This document shows positions 1 through 39,554 of a stretch of DNA of 39,554 bases, piece after piece. The stretch is from IMG/VR virus record IMGVR_UViG_3300044691_000296, positions 1-39,554 of that record. One strand, written 5' to 3'. Within the stretch, counting starts at the first letter, position 1, and every line of letters begins with the position of its first letter. This stretch comes from a virus. Made by a program: the position numbers and the translations under genes. The notes beneath the pieces are model-generated. The model was not told the DNA's origin. It did not search any database and saw only the letters and a list, made by a program, of their open reading frames with translations.

Positions 1-43
1 GGATATTGTCCCGATCACCACGAGTTCGGTGTGGGCGGCGGAG
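1..43 (+). repeat. Left copy of the terminal overlap
   Basis: Bases 1-43 match 39512-39554 except at base 20 (A here, G at 39531). Both copies lie in the same reading frame of the hub gene. This is most simply the overlap left when a circular or circularly permuted genome is assembled as a linear contig. The mismatch would then be a population variant or an error. Confidence 0.85.
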
Positions 44-1648
44 ACGAACAACCAAAACCTCGCCTTGCGGGACCTCCCCGTCCGTATCACCAAGATTGTG
101 GACAACCCGGACGGGACCCTAGACGTAACCGCAGAGGATTACCCCTTCGGCGTCCACCAACCCACCATATACAACAAGGATCTTGCGGCGGCGTTGGCAC
201 AGCCGAACAAGTACGCGGACCCCGGCAATTCAGAAGTGGTCATGTTTGAGGCAACAAGCCGCCTCACGGGTTTCCAGGGTAACCAAATCTGGATTGGCGC
301 GCTCGGTTCCAACTCTGATTGGGGGAGCTGCAATATCTACGCTTCGATGGACGGGGCCAAGTACCAGCAAGTTGGGACTATCACAAGCCCCGCCCGGTTG
401 GGCGTCTTGGGCGCGGACTTCGGGTCCGGGGTTGACCCGGACATAACTATCCCGCTTGTTATTGACCTCGTACAGAACAGCGGCGCACTTGAATCAGCGA
501 CGGCAGCGGACGCGGACGCGGACAATACGTTGTGCTACGTGGACGGTGAATTGGTGTCGTACTCGGCTTGCGCCGTTACGGGCGTTGACCAATGCACGGC
601 TACCGTGTACCTCCGGCGCGGGCGGATGGGGTCAACCATCGGGGCGCACATCGCGGGCAGTTTGTTTATGAGGCTAGACGATGCAGTCTTTAAGTTTACC
701 TACGATCCTAGTTGGGCCGGAAAGACCATTCATTTAAAGTTCCAATCGGTCAACGTCTATGGAAACTCCGCACAGGATCTAAGCACGTTGACGGCGACGA
801 GCTTTACCATCCCCGGATTGAACCCCGGCACCGTGGACGCGGCAAGCGGCTTGGTGACATCTACATATATGCCACCGAACGTCACCACAAACGTGGCCCT
901 CAACGCGGTAGTAGCATCCGCGTACGATGCAGGGACCACAACGTCTACCGTGTCAATCTACGGGCCGGGCGGCGTTGGGACGAGCTGGACATATACCGTT
1001 GGCAGCCATACCCGGACGTACGCGGCGGGGACCATAACCGGAGTGACTCCGGGCAGCTCGGTCTTTGTTGTTTTCAACACCCAAACAAACGCGTTTATTT
1101 TGATCCCGACAACCAACTATCAGGACCTCTTAAACGACTTTTACATCGTCCTTGGTGGCATCATCGTAGCCAATGCGACGGGCGGCGGCACGAGCGGCGG
1201 ATACACAGGCGGCGCGGGCGGCGGTGGATACGCTTGCACGGTCGAAGGAACCCCGCTCGACACGCCGGACGGCCCAATAGATAACCGGGTCCTCAAGGCG
1301 CGCTTGGACGCCGGGGAAACGGTGTATCTCTCGGGAAGGTTCGGCCCGGAGCGGCTTGTCGGTGCAACGTGGGAACGGGTCACCGATGTATACCGGGTCA
1401 ACGTGGGGAACCGCCCGGCGTTTGAGTGCTCGGGAAGCCACATGCTCCGCGTCCAAGGTCATTACAAATGGACCCGCGAAATAGCAACGAGGGCACGTCT
1501 TGAAACGCGGGACGGCTACGAGCACGCCCGCATCGTTCCGACCGGCGCGGTCTGCCGGGTCCTCCGAGTTCACCTTGAAGGGCCAAGCCACGAGTATTCA
1601 ACCCACGGCGTCATGACACACAACATGAAGGCTGACCCCGCACCATAG
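1..1648 (+). CDS. Tail hub/tip protein, C-terminal part, ending in a Hint domain
   Basis: This frame is open from base 2 and has no start of its own. It is the continuation of the frame that leaves the window at 39554, and the 43-base overlap keeps the reading frame. Joined, the protein is about 1139 residues. The position after NlpC/P60 and the overall style fit the GTA gp15/lambda J-like hub that forms the tail tip and contacts the host. This part holds the end of the hub fold, then beta-rich fibronectin-like stretches, a Gly-rich linker (about 1186-1231), and a C-terminal Hint domain beginning at Cys (codon 1235-1237). The apparent GTG start at 29 is an artefact of the window edge. The next gene follows after 9 bases with a good ribosome binding site. 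Function as hub is inferred from context; the Hint motifs are seen directly. Confidence 0.85.
   Translation, partial: DIVPITTSSVWAAETNNQNLALRDLPVRITKIVDNPDGTLDVTAEDYPFGVHQPTIYNKDLAAALAQPNKYADPGNSEVVMFEATSRLTGFQGNQIWIGALGSNSDWGSCNIYASMDGAKYQQVGTITSPARLGVLGADFGSGVDPDITIPLVIDLVQNSGALESATAADADADNTLCYVDGELVSYSACAVTGVDQCTATVYLRRGRMGSTIGAHIAGSLFMRLDDAVFKFTYDPSWAGKTIHLKFQSVNVYGNSAQDLSTLTATSFTIPGLNPGTVDAASGLVTSTYMPPNVTTNVALNAVVASAYDAGTTTSTVSIYGPGGVGTSWTYTVGSHTRTYAAGTITGVTPGSSVFVVFNTQTNAFILIPTTNYQDLLNDFYIVLGGIIVANATGGGTSGGYTGGAGGGGYACTVEGTPLDTPDGPIDNRVLKARLDAGETVYLSGRFGPERLVGATWERVTDVYRVNVGNRPAFECSGSHMLRVQGHYKWTREIATRARLETRDGYEHARIVPTGAVCRVLRVHLEGPSHEYSTHGVMTHNMKADPAP
1235..1624 (+). other. Hint (bacterial intein-like) domain at the C-terminus of the tail hub
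   Basis: About 130 residues. Block A is CTVEGTPLDTPDG, with Cys as residue 1. A block-B-like stretch is FECSGSHMLRV. Block F is VLRVHLEGPSHEYS, and block G is THGVMTHN, ending in the His-Asn pair needed for Asn cyclisation. No homing endonuclease insert fits in this length. The residue after HN is Met, not Cys, Ser or Thr, and only seven residues follow. Standard protein splicing is therefore unlikely; cleavage at the N- or C-terminal junction is the more likely activity, as known for bacterial intein-like domains. The Gly-rich linker just upstream would make an accessible N-junction. Confidence 0.82.
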
Positions 1649-1657
1649 GAGAAAATA

Positions 1658-1924
1658 ATGCCCGCTGAAGTTGTAGACAACCGCGTATTACCTGCCGAGG
1701 CCCAAGAGGTCCTCTTGATTATGGATGACTTCGGGACGGCGTTTTCCTTGCAGATCCCCGTGAGTGACTCCGCCAACCGGCAGACACGCATAGACGCCGC
1801 CGTTGCACAACAGTCCGCGAACCAAGCGGCGTTGGAAGCGTACGCCTCGGCCCACGGGATTGATTTATCCGCACAAAAGGCGGACGGCATCGCCAAAAAG
1901 AACGCCTTGAAAGGAACACAATGA
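1658..1924 (+). CDS. Small protein of unknown function between tail hub and fibre
   Basis: 88 residues. A clear AGGAGA ribosome binding site lies 5-6 bases before the ATG. The stop overlaps the next start (ATGA at 1921), so translation is probably coupled to the fibre gene. The N-terminal half looks beta-rich (VLLIMDDFGTAFSLQIPV). The C-terminal half is Ala/Gln-rich and probably helical, with many Ala at heptad-like spacing. No family is recognised. The position between hub and fibre suggests a fibre-attachment or chaperone role, which is inference only. Confidence 0.8.
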   Translation: MPAEVVDNRVLPAEAQEVLLIMDDFGTAFSLQIPVSDSANRQTRIDAAVAQQSANQAALEAYASAHGIDLSAQKADGIAKKNALKGTQ

Positions 1925-4917: not shown

Positions 4918-6086
4918 CAACGGCCCCGCTCATCACAATCTTTGTCCGCCACGATGAAGACTGCAAGTACAAGGGCGACGAAACGTCTAAGCGGTGCGCT
5001 TGCCGGAAGCATCTTCGCTGGACGCACAACGGCCAACAGCAACGCCGCAAAGCCGGGACCCGGAGTTGGGCCGAAGCGGAACTCGTCAAGCGGGATCTAG
5101 AGGACCAACTGTCCGGCAAAATCCAGGCACCCGAGACGGCAAAGACAATCCCGGAGGCCGTCGAAGTCTTTTTAGCCACTAAGCGCACCGAAGGCGCGGT
5201 CCCCGCGACAATCAAAAAGTACAACCGGGACACCGCCCGGTTGATAGCCTTTTGTGAGTCTCGCCGCGTCTACGCCCTTGCCGGGTTGACTGTTGAATTG
5301 CTCGCCACGTTTTGCGCCTCGTGGGAAGTGACCCTCCAAAGCAGTTTTACCCGAGCGAAGACTCGCGAACGGTTGAGTTCGTTTCTCCGGTTTTGCTACG
5401 ACGCCCAATGGATTCCGCGAGTCCCGCGTCTCCCCAAGATCACAATTGACGAGCCGCCCACGCTGCCCTTGACGGAGGACGAATACCAACGGCTGTTGGA
5501 TTGTTTGCACGTCACCAAGCCGTTAGGCAAAACAAACAAGCCGGTTGACGGTGGCATGACGCCCAAACAGTTGGTTCGCGTCCGGGCGCTAATTCAATTG
5601 ATGCGGTGGACGGGGTTATCAATCCGTGACGCGATCACGTTGCCCACCCCGTCCATAACTTCAGAGGGCGAGCGTTACCGGGTCACGACATCAAGGCAGA
5701 AAACAGGGACCCACGTTTCCGTTGTCATCCCTCCCGATGTTGCCCGCGAGGTCCTAGCGGCGGCGGGAGAAAAATACTTCATCTGGAGCGGCGAAGGCAA
5801 CGCCGCGCACATGGCCGGGAAGTATACGGAGCGATATATCCGCCCCGCATTCGTGGCGGCGGGCATCCCTCTAGAGGGCCACATGGTCAGCCATAGACTC
5901 CGGGACACGTTCGCGGTTCGCCTCTTGGAAAACGGCGTCCCAATGGAAGAGGTAAGCCGGGCGCTTGGTCACACATCCATCCGCACCACTGAGCGCCATT
6001 ATGCTAAGTGGGTCAAATCCAGACAAGACCGGCTCGACTCATTGATAACCGGGACGTGGGCAAAGAAAAAGGCTAGAGCCGCGTAG
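4914..6086 (+). CDS. int: Tyrosine site-specific integrase
   Basis: 390 residues. The N-terminal region carries a Cys/Arg-rich arm-binding-like segment (CKYKGD, then CACRKH). A SAM-like core-binding domain follows (about residues 65-165), then the catalytic domain. Catalytic residues are visible: Arg in RWTGLSIRDA, Lys in SRQKTGTH, HRLR in the H-x-x-R box, GH in ALGHTSIRTT, and the nucleophile Tyr363 in ERHYAKW. The start is ATG 4914, coupled to the upstream stop, not the longer GTG version at 4845. It acts on the attP core at 4070-4104. The stop lies within a bidirectional terminator. Confidence 0.97.
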   Translation: MTTAPLITIFVRHDEDCKYKGDETSKRCACRKHLRWTHNGQQQRRKAGTRSWAEAELVKRDLEDQLSGKIQAPETAKTIPEAVEVFLATKRTEGAVPATIKKYNRDTARLIAFCESRRVYALAGLTVELLATFCASWEVTLQSSFTRAKTRERLSSFLRFCYDAQWIPRVPRLPKITIDEPPTLPLTEDEYQRLLDCLHVTKPLGKTNKPVDGGMTPKQLVRVRALIQLMRWTGLSIRDAITLPTPSITSEGERYRVTTSRQKTGTHVSVVIPPDVAREVLAAAGEKYFIWSGEGNAAHMAGKYTERYIRPAFVAAGIPLEGHMVSHRLRDTFAVRLLENGVPMEEVSRALGHTSIRTTERHYAKWVKSRQDRLDSLITGTWAKKKARAA

Positions 6087-37290: not shown

Positions 37291-37740
37291 ATGCTAACGA
37301 ACGAACAGCGCGCGAACATCGTCAGAGAGACTAAAAGTTGGATTGGCACGCCGTACCGTGGGTGGTCCTGTGTAAAGGGCGCGGGCGTCGATTGCGGACA
37401 GCTTATATACGGCGTGTTCCGCGCGTGCGGCCTCGTCCCCGTGCTGGAGCTGCCGAAAGACTACTCCCTCCAGTTGGCACAACACCGCGCATCCACGGAG
37501 TACATAGACACCGTGGCCAAATACTTCCGGGAGATACCGGAGGCCGAAGTCTTGCCGGGTGACGTTGTGGTTTACAAGTTGGGGTTGGCGTATGCACACG
37601 CCGCAATCGTCCTGGAGTGGCCTAACAACGTTGTCCAGGCCGAAGCCCGCCACGGCGTCTCTGGGGCGCACGGAACTAAGACGCCGTTGTTCCGCCGCGC
37701 GGAGCGCCGGTTGTTCACTTTGAAAGACGAGGCTAAATAA
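37291..37740 (+). CDS. NlpC/P60 peptidoglycan peptidase of the tail tip
   Basis: 149 residues. The catalytic Cys35 is in VDCGQLIYG and the catalytic His103 in YAHAAIVLEW, with LPGDVVVY between them, the standard NlpC/P60 arrangement. In GTA and lambda-like tails (RcGTA gp14, lambda K) this enzyme sits at the tail tip and opens peptidoglycan during infection. The C-terminal ARHGVSG is a frequent feature of the phage subgroup. The stop overlaps the hub start (TAATG). It is more likely a virion peptidase than the lysis endolysin. Confidence 0.92.
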   Translation: MLTNEQRANIVRETKSWIGTPYRGWSCVKGAGVDCGQLIYGVFRACGLVPVLELPKDYSLQLAQHRASTEYIDTVAKYFREIPEAEVLPGDVVVYKLGLAYAHAAIVLEWPNNVVQAEARHGVSGAHGTKTPLFRRAERRLFTLKDEAK

Positions 37741-39554
37741 TGTCTGCCATATTCGGACCACAGACGGCGGGACCCACGCGCATTAACCAAGTCCAGATCA
37801 ATCAAAGCGTGCTTGGCTATGCGTTGCCGGTCGTCATGGGCAAAGGCAAAGTCCAACAGTCTATTTTGTGGACGGACGGCTTTTCGTCTAAGCAAACAAC
37901 GGCGGGCGGCGGCGGTAAGGGCTTGGGCGGCGGCAAAGGCTCCCAATACGTTTACAGCGCGGACCTTATCGCGGGCATTTGCGCCGGGTCAATCGTGGGC
38001 GTTTGCGACGTGTGGTCCGGGCAAAGTTGGCTGAGTAATACAAACGCGGCGGAGACATACACGATTACGGGCGGAACCCCGATATATACGCCGCTCAACG
38101 CCGCCAACATCACGGCAAATCAAGGCGTTGGGTTGAGCATTATTTTCGGCGGAACGTTCCCGGACCTCGGGTCCTCGGGAACGACGTTGAGCGGATTTCA
38201 TACCGTACCGCTTGTCCAGGTTGCCTTCGGTGCGACGTTGAGCAGTGGGGAGTATTCGATTGACCCGAGCAACAACAATTACCATTTCTCCCCGGCAGAC
38301 GTGGGACAGACCGTCCAAATAAATTACAGCTTCGCCCTCGGCATTATCAAGCAACAACAAACGGACCTCATCCCGTCCGGCTTGACGATTAGCGTTGGAG
38401 GAACGACGCCGTTCTCCGTTGACGGCGGTGTCCAATACAAGACAGGGCCGAACGACGGCAAAGCCTTGATAAACGTTGGCGGGTCACCATCGGCAACCGG
38501 GACGTACTCGGTAAGCGGGAGCGCCCCGGCAACGTATCACTTTGCACCGGGAGATATCGGCGCGGAGGTCTTGATAACCTTCAAGCTAAACAACAGCACG
38601 GCACTCCCGAGCGGTACACAGACGAGTCTAGCCTTTACGCTCTTCGACGGCGCGCCCGGACAGGCCGCTTGGGCGTTGCTATCTAGCAACTTCCCCGGCG
38701 CGGCCCTCGGATATTCGGGCATCGCATACGCCGCCTATGGGCCTATGGACCTTGGATACGGCGCACAGATCCAACAAAACGTCTTTGAGGTTTTGACGGC
38801 GGACGGATGGGGCGGCGGGATAGTCGATTGCAACCCGGTCCAATGCATCCTCCGGGTTCTCACGGATAAAGTTTGGGGACTTGGGGCCGGGGCCGTCCCC
38901 TTCCCGGTTAGCGCAATCGACATGCCAACGTGGGGTTTCCCAACGGCGAGCGGCTCGGCCCGGCAAGATAGCACCGCCGCGAGTTGGTTTGCAGCGAACG
39001 GCTTCTTTATCTCTCCGGTAATCGACAAGCAAGACACCGCCGCCTCACTGATGAGCCGGTGGCTTGAGGCCGGGCAGTGTGCCGCCTTCATGTCCGAAGG
39101 GCTTCTCAAACTGGTCCCGTACGGAGACACTTCGACGGCGGGCAACGGCGCAATATGGGTTGCTCCGGCAGACTTCGCCGTGGCGTTGGATGACACTTGT
39201 TTCCTCCCGAAGAGCGAAGGCGAAGACCCGGTTAAAATATCTACACCCACGGATTACATGAGCGCATGGAACACGGCGCAAGTCAGTTGGAATAACCGGG
39301 CCAACCAATACGCGCCGGAGATTACGCCCGAGTCTGACCAAGGTGCCAAGAATCGGTATGGTGACCGCATAGAAGACCCACAGACTTGGGACTTTATCAC
39401 GACGCTGCCCGCCGCCGTGTTTGCAGCAAGTATGCGGGTTAAGCGGAGCGTCTACACCCGGAAGACTTACGAGTTCACGTTGCCATATCGGTACACGTAC
39501 CTTGAGCCGATGGATATTGTCCCGATCACCGCGAGTTCGGTGTGGGCGGCGGAG
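37740..39554 (+). CDS. Tail hub/tip protein, N-terminal part (continues at base 1)
   Basis: 605 residues to the window edge, continuing in frame at base 2 after the 43-base overlap; about 1139 residues in all. The N-terminus MSAIFGPQTAGPTRINQVQI is typical of large hub proteins, followed by a Gly-rich loop (TTAGGGGKGLGGGKG), a hydrophobic stretch, and repeated beta units such as YSVSGSAPATYHFAPGDIGA. The region from GYGAQIQQNVFEVLTADGWG to YTYLEPMDIVPIT resembles the phage_tail_3/GTA hub fold that binds the upstream tail tip. The protein ends in a Hint domain. It is encoded directly after NlpC/P60, as RcGTA gp15 is. Confidence 0.87.
   Translation, partial: MSAIFGPQTAGPTRINQVQINQSVLGYALPVVMGKGKVQQSILWTDGFSSKQTTAGGGGKGLGGGKGSQYVYSADLIAGICAGSIVGVCDVWSGQSWLSNTNAAETYTITGGTPIYTPLNAANITANQGVGLSIIFGGTFPDLGSSGTTLSGFHTVPLVQVAFGATLSSGEYSIDPSNNNYHFSPADVGQTVQINYSFALGIIKQQQTDLIPSGLTISVGGTTPFSVDGGVQYKTGPNDGKALINVGGSPSATGTYSVSGSAPATYHFAPGDIGAEVLITFKLNNSTALPSGTQTSLAFTLFDGAPGQAAWALLSSNFPGAALGYSGIAYAAYGPMDLGYGAQIQQNVFEVLTADGWGGGIVDCNPVQCILRVLTDKVWGLGAGAVPFPVSAIDMPTWGFPTASGSARQDSTAASWFAANGFFISPVIDKQDTAASLMSRWLEAGQCAAFMSEGLLKLVPYGDTSTAGNGAIWVAPADFAVALDDTCFLPKSEGEDPVKISTPTDYMSAWNTAQVSWNNRANQYAPEITPESDQGAKNRYGDRIEDPQTWDFITTLPAAVFAASMRVKRSVYTRKTYEFTLPYRYTYLEPMDIVPITASSVWAAE
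39512..39554 (+). repeat. Right copy of the terminal overlap
   Basis: Identical to bases 1-43 except G39531 against A20. It supports a circular or circularly permuted genome of about 39511 bases. A physical terminal repeat inside the hub gene is the less likely alternative. Confidence 0.85.

Follow-up and report, generated by a model that had tools for sequence, protein, structure and literature searches.

No part of a phage engages the cell before the tail hub, and beyond a few models little is known of how hubs mature. The end of a tail-hub gene in IMG/VR virus record IMGVR_UViG_3300044691_000296, analyzed here over its full 39,554 nucleotides (hereafter, the window), raises the question of what an apparent Hint domain might be doing at the tip of a phage tail. 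A first-pass annotation, made from the sequence alone, had placed an intein-like Hint domain at the C-terminus of this hub and had judged splicing unlikely and self-cleavage plausible. The analysis reported here favors, with a probability of roughly 0.6, a non-splicing, self-processing Hint domain akin to the A-type bacterial intein-like (BIL) domains, fused to the hub by a Gly-rich strap and acting in its maturation.

Results

Predicted fold of the hub C-terminus

The segment lies on the plus strand, in a frame that is open throughout (2–1648), and spans 130 residues from Cys1 to Asn130 (1235–1624). The coordinates first annotated are exact, the Cys codon starting at base 1235 and the Asn codon ending at base 1624. 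The domain is preceded by a Gly-rich linker, TGGGTSGGYTGGAGGGGYA (1178–1234), the predicted new C-terminus of the hub upon N-side cleavage, and opens with block A, CTVEGTPLDTPDG (1235–1273), which was identified through block-A pattern matches and contains the Cys1 nucleophile. In the block B equivalent, CSGSH (1427–1441), alignment A9 places a His (1439–1441) opposite the TxxH His of inteins, and this residue is invariant in the 13 sequences of that alignment. Blocks F and G (1556–1624), with RVLRVHLEGPSHEYSTHGVMT as the block-F-like motif, end in a His-Asn pair (1619–1624) that is invariant in the 18 sequences of alignment A8. The linker, the leading Cys, the A, B-like and F-like blocks and the final His-Asn of the first-pass annotation are hence all present in the open frame, and its claim that no splicing nucleophile follows was also borne out: the residue after His-Asn is Met, not Cys, Ser, or Thr, and the stop is reached after seven residues (MKADPAP; 1625–1645), which Asn cyclization is predicted to release.

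Matches to curated families are usual in the Hint superfamily, but it is the fold that defines membership. Searches with the window segment by itself gave no Hint family in Pfam, NCBIfam, or PHROGs and no hit among PDB sequences. An AlphaFold2 model computed with 13 aligned sequences adopts the horseshoe-shaped, all-beta Hint fold (pLDDT 90.4, pTM 0.81). The top Foldseek matches of this model in the PDB are BIL2 (E 1.9e-7) and inteins, and its VIA Z scores against 50 intein, BIL, and Hedgehog entries range from 14.5 to 18.6, with values of 18.6 for an intein, 16.9 for Tetrahymena BIL2 (6y75), 16.3 for the C. thermocellum BIL (2lwy), and 15.2 for Hedgehog. The initial expectation of a match to Hint or BIL profiles therefore held at the level of the fold and failed for the window sequence by itself.

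Several sequence comparisons complement the model. The window contains a single copy of a DNA pattern for block A (C-x3-GTP-x2-TPDG), which 100 shuffles never produced; in the viral collection, the eight matches of this pattern comprise the sister phage and seven others, all of which read as Hint or intein segments (two of them identical in sequence). In end-to-end alignments anchored at Cys1 and the His-Asn pair, none of 500 shuffles reaches the score of the window segment with an unrelated acidobacterial Hint (z 3.5), and only 2 of 500 do so with a Gordonia intein. Among 11 related hub Hints, six match the Vint family (PF14623; best 3.8e-6), three Hint_2, and one Intein_splicing under a loose E limit. 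Profiles built from such relatives match solved Hint structures of the BIL, Vint, and intein types, including 6tmm/6y75 (BIL2) and 8r2c, at E-values of 5.5e-4 to 0.003. A profile of the pattern-selected inteins, which is biased for block A, recovers the window Hint (E 0.0017 in 861 open reading frames), and hhalign comparison of alignments A1 and A5 pairs block A only (E 0.086). On the computed model, its structural matches and these relatives, the segment is a Hint domain at the C-terminus of a phage tail hub, as initially proposed.

Distribution and conservation among related hubs

Relatives of the hub were collected through the hub core, and the domains they carry sit at the equivalent position, behind a Gly strap of the same kind. 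This architecture recurs in 17 other distinct hub C-termini encoded on related viral contigs, at 14–20% identity to the window Hint, with the exception of one sister Hint at 74%. In alignment A8, which gathers the 18 distinct hub Hints, no column other than those of Cys1 and the terminal His-Asn is invariant, and a Gly-rich stretch precedes Cys1 in 18 of 18. The position following His-Asn holds M, I, Y, F, A, V, Q, N, or T. Even though two relatives have Thr there, the hub Hints share no +1 nucleophile, indicating that splicing is not their common function, and 3–7 residues follow His-Asn in those relatives whose stop is seen. The ratio of nonsynonymous to synonymous substitutions within the Hint ranges from 0.04 to 0.21 over eight pairs (0.19 for the window and its sister), pointing to purifying selection and, hence, to a domain that is presumably translated and used.

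In a first tree, 19 of the 47 hub rows with a complete C-terminus carry a Hint. After removal of near-copies, 42 complete hubs remain: 18 with a Hint, three with only a Gly-rich tail, and 21 with neither. On the tree of these 42 hubs, the presence of the domain requires at least six changes (6–7 in bootstraps). Over the first thousand residues, hubs L106 and L107 share about 90% identity; beyond that they diverge, carrying Hints of different subfamilies and different small downstream genes, and their close relative L109 has no C-terminal extension, a comparison that marks the hub C-terminus as an exchangeable module. From the sequences compared, the hub Hint reads as a recurrent, exchangeable module rather than a single case.

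A tblastn search with six hub-Hint sequences against 50,697 phage records returned nothing comparable; the best lead, in Gordonia phages (0.006), was rejected as an intein, with a +1 Cys, inside a MuF-type minor capsid protein. Nearly all relatives are uncultured viral contigs. The genome collection yielded one relative hub, lacking a Hint, in a prophage of a soil acidobacterium (an Acidobacteriaceae metagenome-assembled genome); across that phylum, a hub match was seen in five of 396 sampled genomes and was full-length only in this one. As the sole cellular relative with a full-length hub, this genome makes an acidobacterial host likely for the window phage.

Hub counterparts lacking the domain

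Three Hint-less hubs (L065, L085, and L092) stop at a similar Gly-rich tail, as excision of the domain would leave. The window hub and L065 align through the Gly strap, and L065 ends 18 residues later. L085 has the same domain ahead of the strap as L098 and ends in GGGGQGGGGGQGGGGGYGHNQN where L098 has GGGGVGGGGS followed by a Hint. In both pairs, the hub lacking the Hint stops within about 20 residues once the strap is reached. L092 likewise ends just past its strap. That some sister hubs devoid of a Hint end at the strap suggests that the window phage probably trims its own tail tip.

The hub gene and its surroundings

The ends of the record cut the hub gene in two. Its first 605 codons (37740–39554, plus strand) encode a lambda-J/GTA-megatron type hub (GTA, gene transfer agent) of the Phage-tail_3 kind (PF13550, E 2.5e-12; phrog_1101, 1e-30; GTA_megatron, 7e-14), and the gene continues at window base 2 and runs to its stop (2–1648, plus strand; phrog_1101, 1.3e-28), with Rcc01698_C at about 392–667 (PF23666, E 2.4e-7). 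The two ends of the record agree over 43 bases (1–43 and 39512–39554) at 98%, with one mismatch, and this overlap is the ground for reading the gene across the ends; circular permutation or terminal redundancy of the record is probable. Joined through the overlap, the hub comprises 1139 amino acids, with the Cys at 1003 and the Asn at 1132, reproducing the Cys 1003 numbering first given for it. A sister hub that is contiguous (L058/L016) has the same build, with 1141 amino acids and its Cys at 1005. The C-terminal region leading up to the strap (854–1177, plus strand; approximate boundaries, from the alignment of the window hub with L065) is common to this Hint-less relative. The presence of Phage-tail_3 and Rcc01698_C, downstream of DUF2460, BR0599, and NlpC/P60 genes, qualifies the host protein as a hub of the lambda-J/GTA-megatron type. 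These genes and the hub make up a GTA-like tail-tip module placed after the head genes of the window, a single phage record in which PHROGs matches identify terminase, portal, protease, and major capsid genes.

A small gene encoding 88 amino acids (1658–1924, plus strand) starts nine bases past the hub stop, which is overlapped by a ribosome-binding-like AGGAG. The sister hub has an 88-residue version behind it, and the Gly-tailed, Hint-less L065 has a related one of 77 residues. Directly downstream of the hub, such a gene was found for all 16 testable Hint hubs (among them the window, L058, L063, L023, L028, L077, L089–L091, L094, L095, L098, L099, L106, and L107) and all three Gly-tailed hubs, compared with four of the 21 others (Fisher p 7e-8, a value too good because the sequences are related). 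The encoded proteins have 80–134 residues, lie within about 40 bases of every testable Hint hub and of the Gly-tailed hubs, and fall by eye into at least five sequence sorts; the five tried, including the window protein, have no significant Pfam or PHROG match. Similar small proteins were recognized by eye across the Hint divide (window/L065, L098/L085, and L023/L092). Because the gene also accompanies hubs that have a Gly tail and no Hint, it occurs independently of Hint chemistry, and the small protein goes with the Gly-tailed hub end rather than with that chemistry as such. Just after some Hint-less hubs (L102 and L114) there is a GIY-YIG-like small gene (MIFYTYMWLREDGTPYYVGKGTG...), possibly a homing endonuclease.

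Discussion

The established chemistry of Hint domains involves a thioester formed at Cys1 and the cyclization of a terminal Asn (PMC7664689, PMC7765530), and BIL domains, in which the splicing nucleophile is likewise not conserved, mainly cleave (PMC7664689; PMC7765530). Lacking a +1 nucleophile, the hub Hint is expected to cleave rather than splice. In the proposed sequence of events, Cys1 would convert the Ala1002-Cys1003 bond into a thioester through an N-S acyl shift once the protein has folded, and water or another nucleophile would break this thioester, leaving a hub with a free Gly-rich tail. The Asn of the His-Asn pair could cyclize, dropping the last seven residues. The Hint would accompany the folding, oligomerization, or assembly of the hub C-terminus and then be removed, exposing a flexible Gly tail at the tail tip. 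The mature hub would then resemble the hubs of relatives that naturally lack the domain, and the Hint is read as a module that removes itself and so matures the hub. What the analysis establishes is the fold (computed), the catalytic residues, their conservation, purifying selection, recurrence, and the Hint-less counterparts; that cleavage takes place, in what order and to what end, is inferred. In the first-pass annotation, cleavage had also been suggested as a possible response to adsorption, and thioester attachment to another molecule as a possible outcome. The plausibility of self-cleavage was in fact strengthened, both by Cys1 and His-Asn being the only residues conserved in the 18 hub Hints and by the Gly-tailed sisters without a Hint.

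Among known systems, the hub Hint resembles A-type BIL domains in its Cys1, block-B His, and terminal His-Asn, in the absence of a +1 nucleophile and of an endonuclease, in its location in a variable part of the host protein, and in a fold that matches the C. thermocellum BIL (2lwy) and Tetrahymena BIL2 (6y75). It differs from them in that the host is a conserved phage tail hub, with the Hint at its very C-terminus, in that its cleavage is a prediction, and in that one subgroup lacks the block-B His. The window Hint displays the A-type combination of Cys1, terminal His-Asn, and no +1 nucleophile, yet the Z scores of its model to BIL2, BIL4, and inteins are similar and its sequence is too divergent to be grouped with A-type BILs. 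Vint domains, known from VWA-Hint proteins of eukaryotes and described as best conserved only in motifs A and B (PMC2362128), provide the best Pfam match (PF14623) for six related hub Hints, and the A5 profile matches a VWA-protein chain (8r2c) at 5.5e-4, but the hub Hints retain His-Asn and the window Hint has no PF14623 match of its own. Mini-inteins of phage TerL proteins and of Gordonia MuF-type proteins share the fold, block A, and the catalytic residues. The TerL-like and MuF-type proteins read here have a long C-extein and a +1 Cys, whereas the hub Hint has neither. The MuF-type genes (L124, 1628–4729, and L125, 1631–4738, from Gordonia phages SchottB and Barsten) are annotated as minor capsid or head morphogenesis proteins, and their intein-like insert, of the form INC...HNC with a +1 Cys (translated for SchottB), is absent from the feature tables.

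The Hedgehog Hog domain is also a C-terminal Hint that acts on the part preceding it, and is close in fold (Z 15.2), but the hub Hint has no sterol-recognition region, keeps His-Asn, and has no known adduct. The S74 autopeptidase chaperone domains of phage tail fibers provide an analogy for purpose, as self-removing domains that aid the folding of a tail protein, through an unrelated Ser/Lys chemistry (PMC7824862). A further BIL-like Hint, with Lys after His-Asn, lies at 5558–5977 (minus strand) of a 58-kb phage contig (L012), within a Gly/Pro-rich protein of 1131 amino acids. Its Hint segment matches the C-terminal ~140 of the 478 positions of phrog_38766, a family of virion structural proteins (2e-6), which indicates that Hints on virion proteins are already present in databases unremarked; a relation of this family to the hub is not supported.

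A number of observations weigh against hub maturation by a self-processing Hint. Three of the 13 sequences behind the AlphaFold2 model are inteins retrieved with the block-A pattern of the window itself, so that model and alignment are not fully independent, and with only two sequences AlphaFold2 yields a pLDDT of 35. The window Hint is missed by single-sequence profiles and by the profile of its hub-Hint relatives; a profile of Hints chosen without the block-A pattern also misses it by sequence. In eight hubs (L077, L081, L091, L093, L094, L095, L099, and L107), the block-B TxxH reads SPCE, with loss of the His and retention of Cys1 and His-Asn; the N-side chemistry may therefore not be universal, and the reaction of this subgroup may be restricted to the C side. 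Lastly, hub cleavage is predicted from the sequences of uncultured phages.

The two main rivals retain a Hint domain on the hub but assign it a different role, and both are deemed unlikely. In a Hedgehog-like conjugation, the thioester would attach the Gly-rich hub tail covalently to a tail protein, to the small downstream protein, or to an amine or hydroxyl on a lipid or the host surface, and the Hint would be lost. The catalytic apparatus would be the same (Cys1 and a Hint fold with a VIA Z of 15.2 to Hedgehog), the reactive end is a flexible Gly strap, there is no splicing nucleophile, and a small protein is always encoded next door. A small gene of that sort, however, is kept by the Hint-less, Gly-tailed hubs L065, L085, and L092, and hence does not depend on ligation by a Hint; the protein ends seven residues past His-Asn, leaving no region for sterol or substrate recognition; and His-Asn is retained, even though Hedgehog uses only the N-S shift (PMC7664689). 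The proposition that the activated thioester couples the tail tip covalently to a virion protein or host-surface molecule, during assembly or attachment, appears slightly less probable still. Alternatively, the Hint could be a non-catalytic accessory, a folded C-terminal knob that the virion retains, for example as an adhesin or oligomer cap. Its location at the end where J-type hubs vary, its exchange between phages, and the loss of the block-B His in one subgroup would all suit a knob, but it is precisely the catalytic Cys1 and His-Asn that are invariant across very divergent members, and hubs without the domain are common.

The remaining alternatives fare worse. A selfish mini-intein or split intein, engaged in splicing or trans-splicing, is very improbable. 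The fold resembles mini-inteins and BILs equally well, and TerL is among the phage genes in which inteins are common, but a class 1 intein would present a +1 Cys, Ser, or Thr and a C-extein, and the window Hint is followed by Met and, after seven residues, a stop; among relatives the C-extein amounts to 3–7 residues with no conserved +1 nucleophile in any, there is no endonuclease, and the next gene is unlike a C-intein part. It is harder still to believe that the segment is not a Hint, its motif residues arising by chance in a Gly-rich hub tail. This would account for the negative single-sequence profile searches, but not for a Hint model with pLDDT 90, a Foldseek E-value of 1.9e-7, an architecture recurring in 17 other distinct sequences, several of which match Vint/Hint families, or an anchored alignment to an unrelated acidobacterial Hint above all 500 shuffles. 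Least credible is the release of a C-terminal toxin payload, a role that Hint peptidases do have in polymorphic toxins (PMC3482391) and that the gene ends nearly refute, with nothing beyond 3–7 residues after the Hint in any member whose stop was seen. The gene ends are also the ground on which a Hog-type adduct region was rejected, along with splicing and a toxin payload.

Hint domains, BILs, and phage inteins are well known, but the literature searched, which largely excludes subscription papers, describes phage inteins in TerL and other genes and contains no report of a Hint on a tail hub or of its recurrence there as a C-terminal module. The exchange of this module between close phages and the existence of Gly-tailed versions without a Hint make its role directly testable by comparison. 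If the proposed maturation holds, a self-excising hub Hint would add a new maturation step to the tails of siphophages and would show Hint chemistry put to natural use beyond inteins, Hedgehog, and toxins. The module would also supply compact domains that cleave or ligate at a Gly-rich C-terminus.
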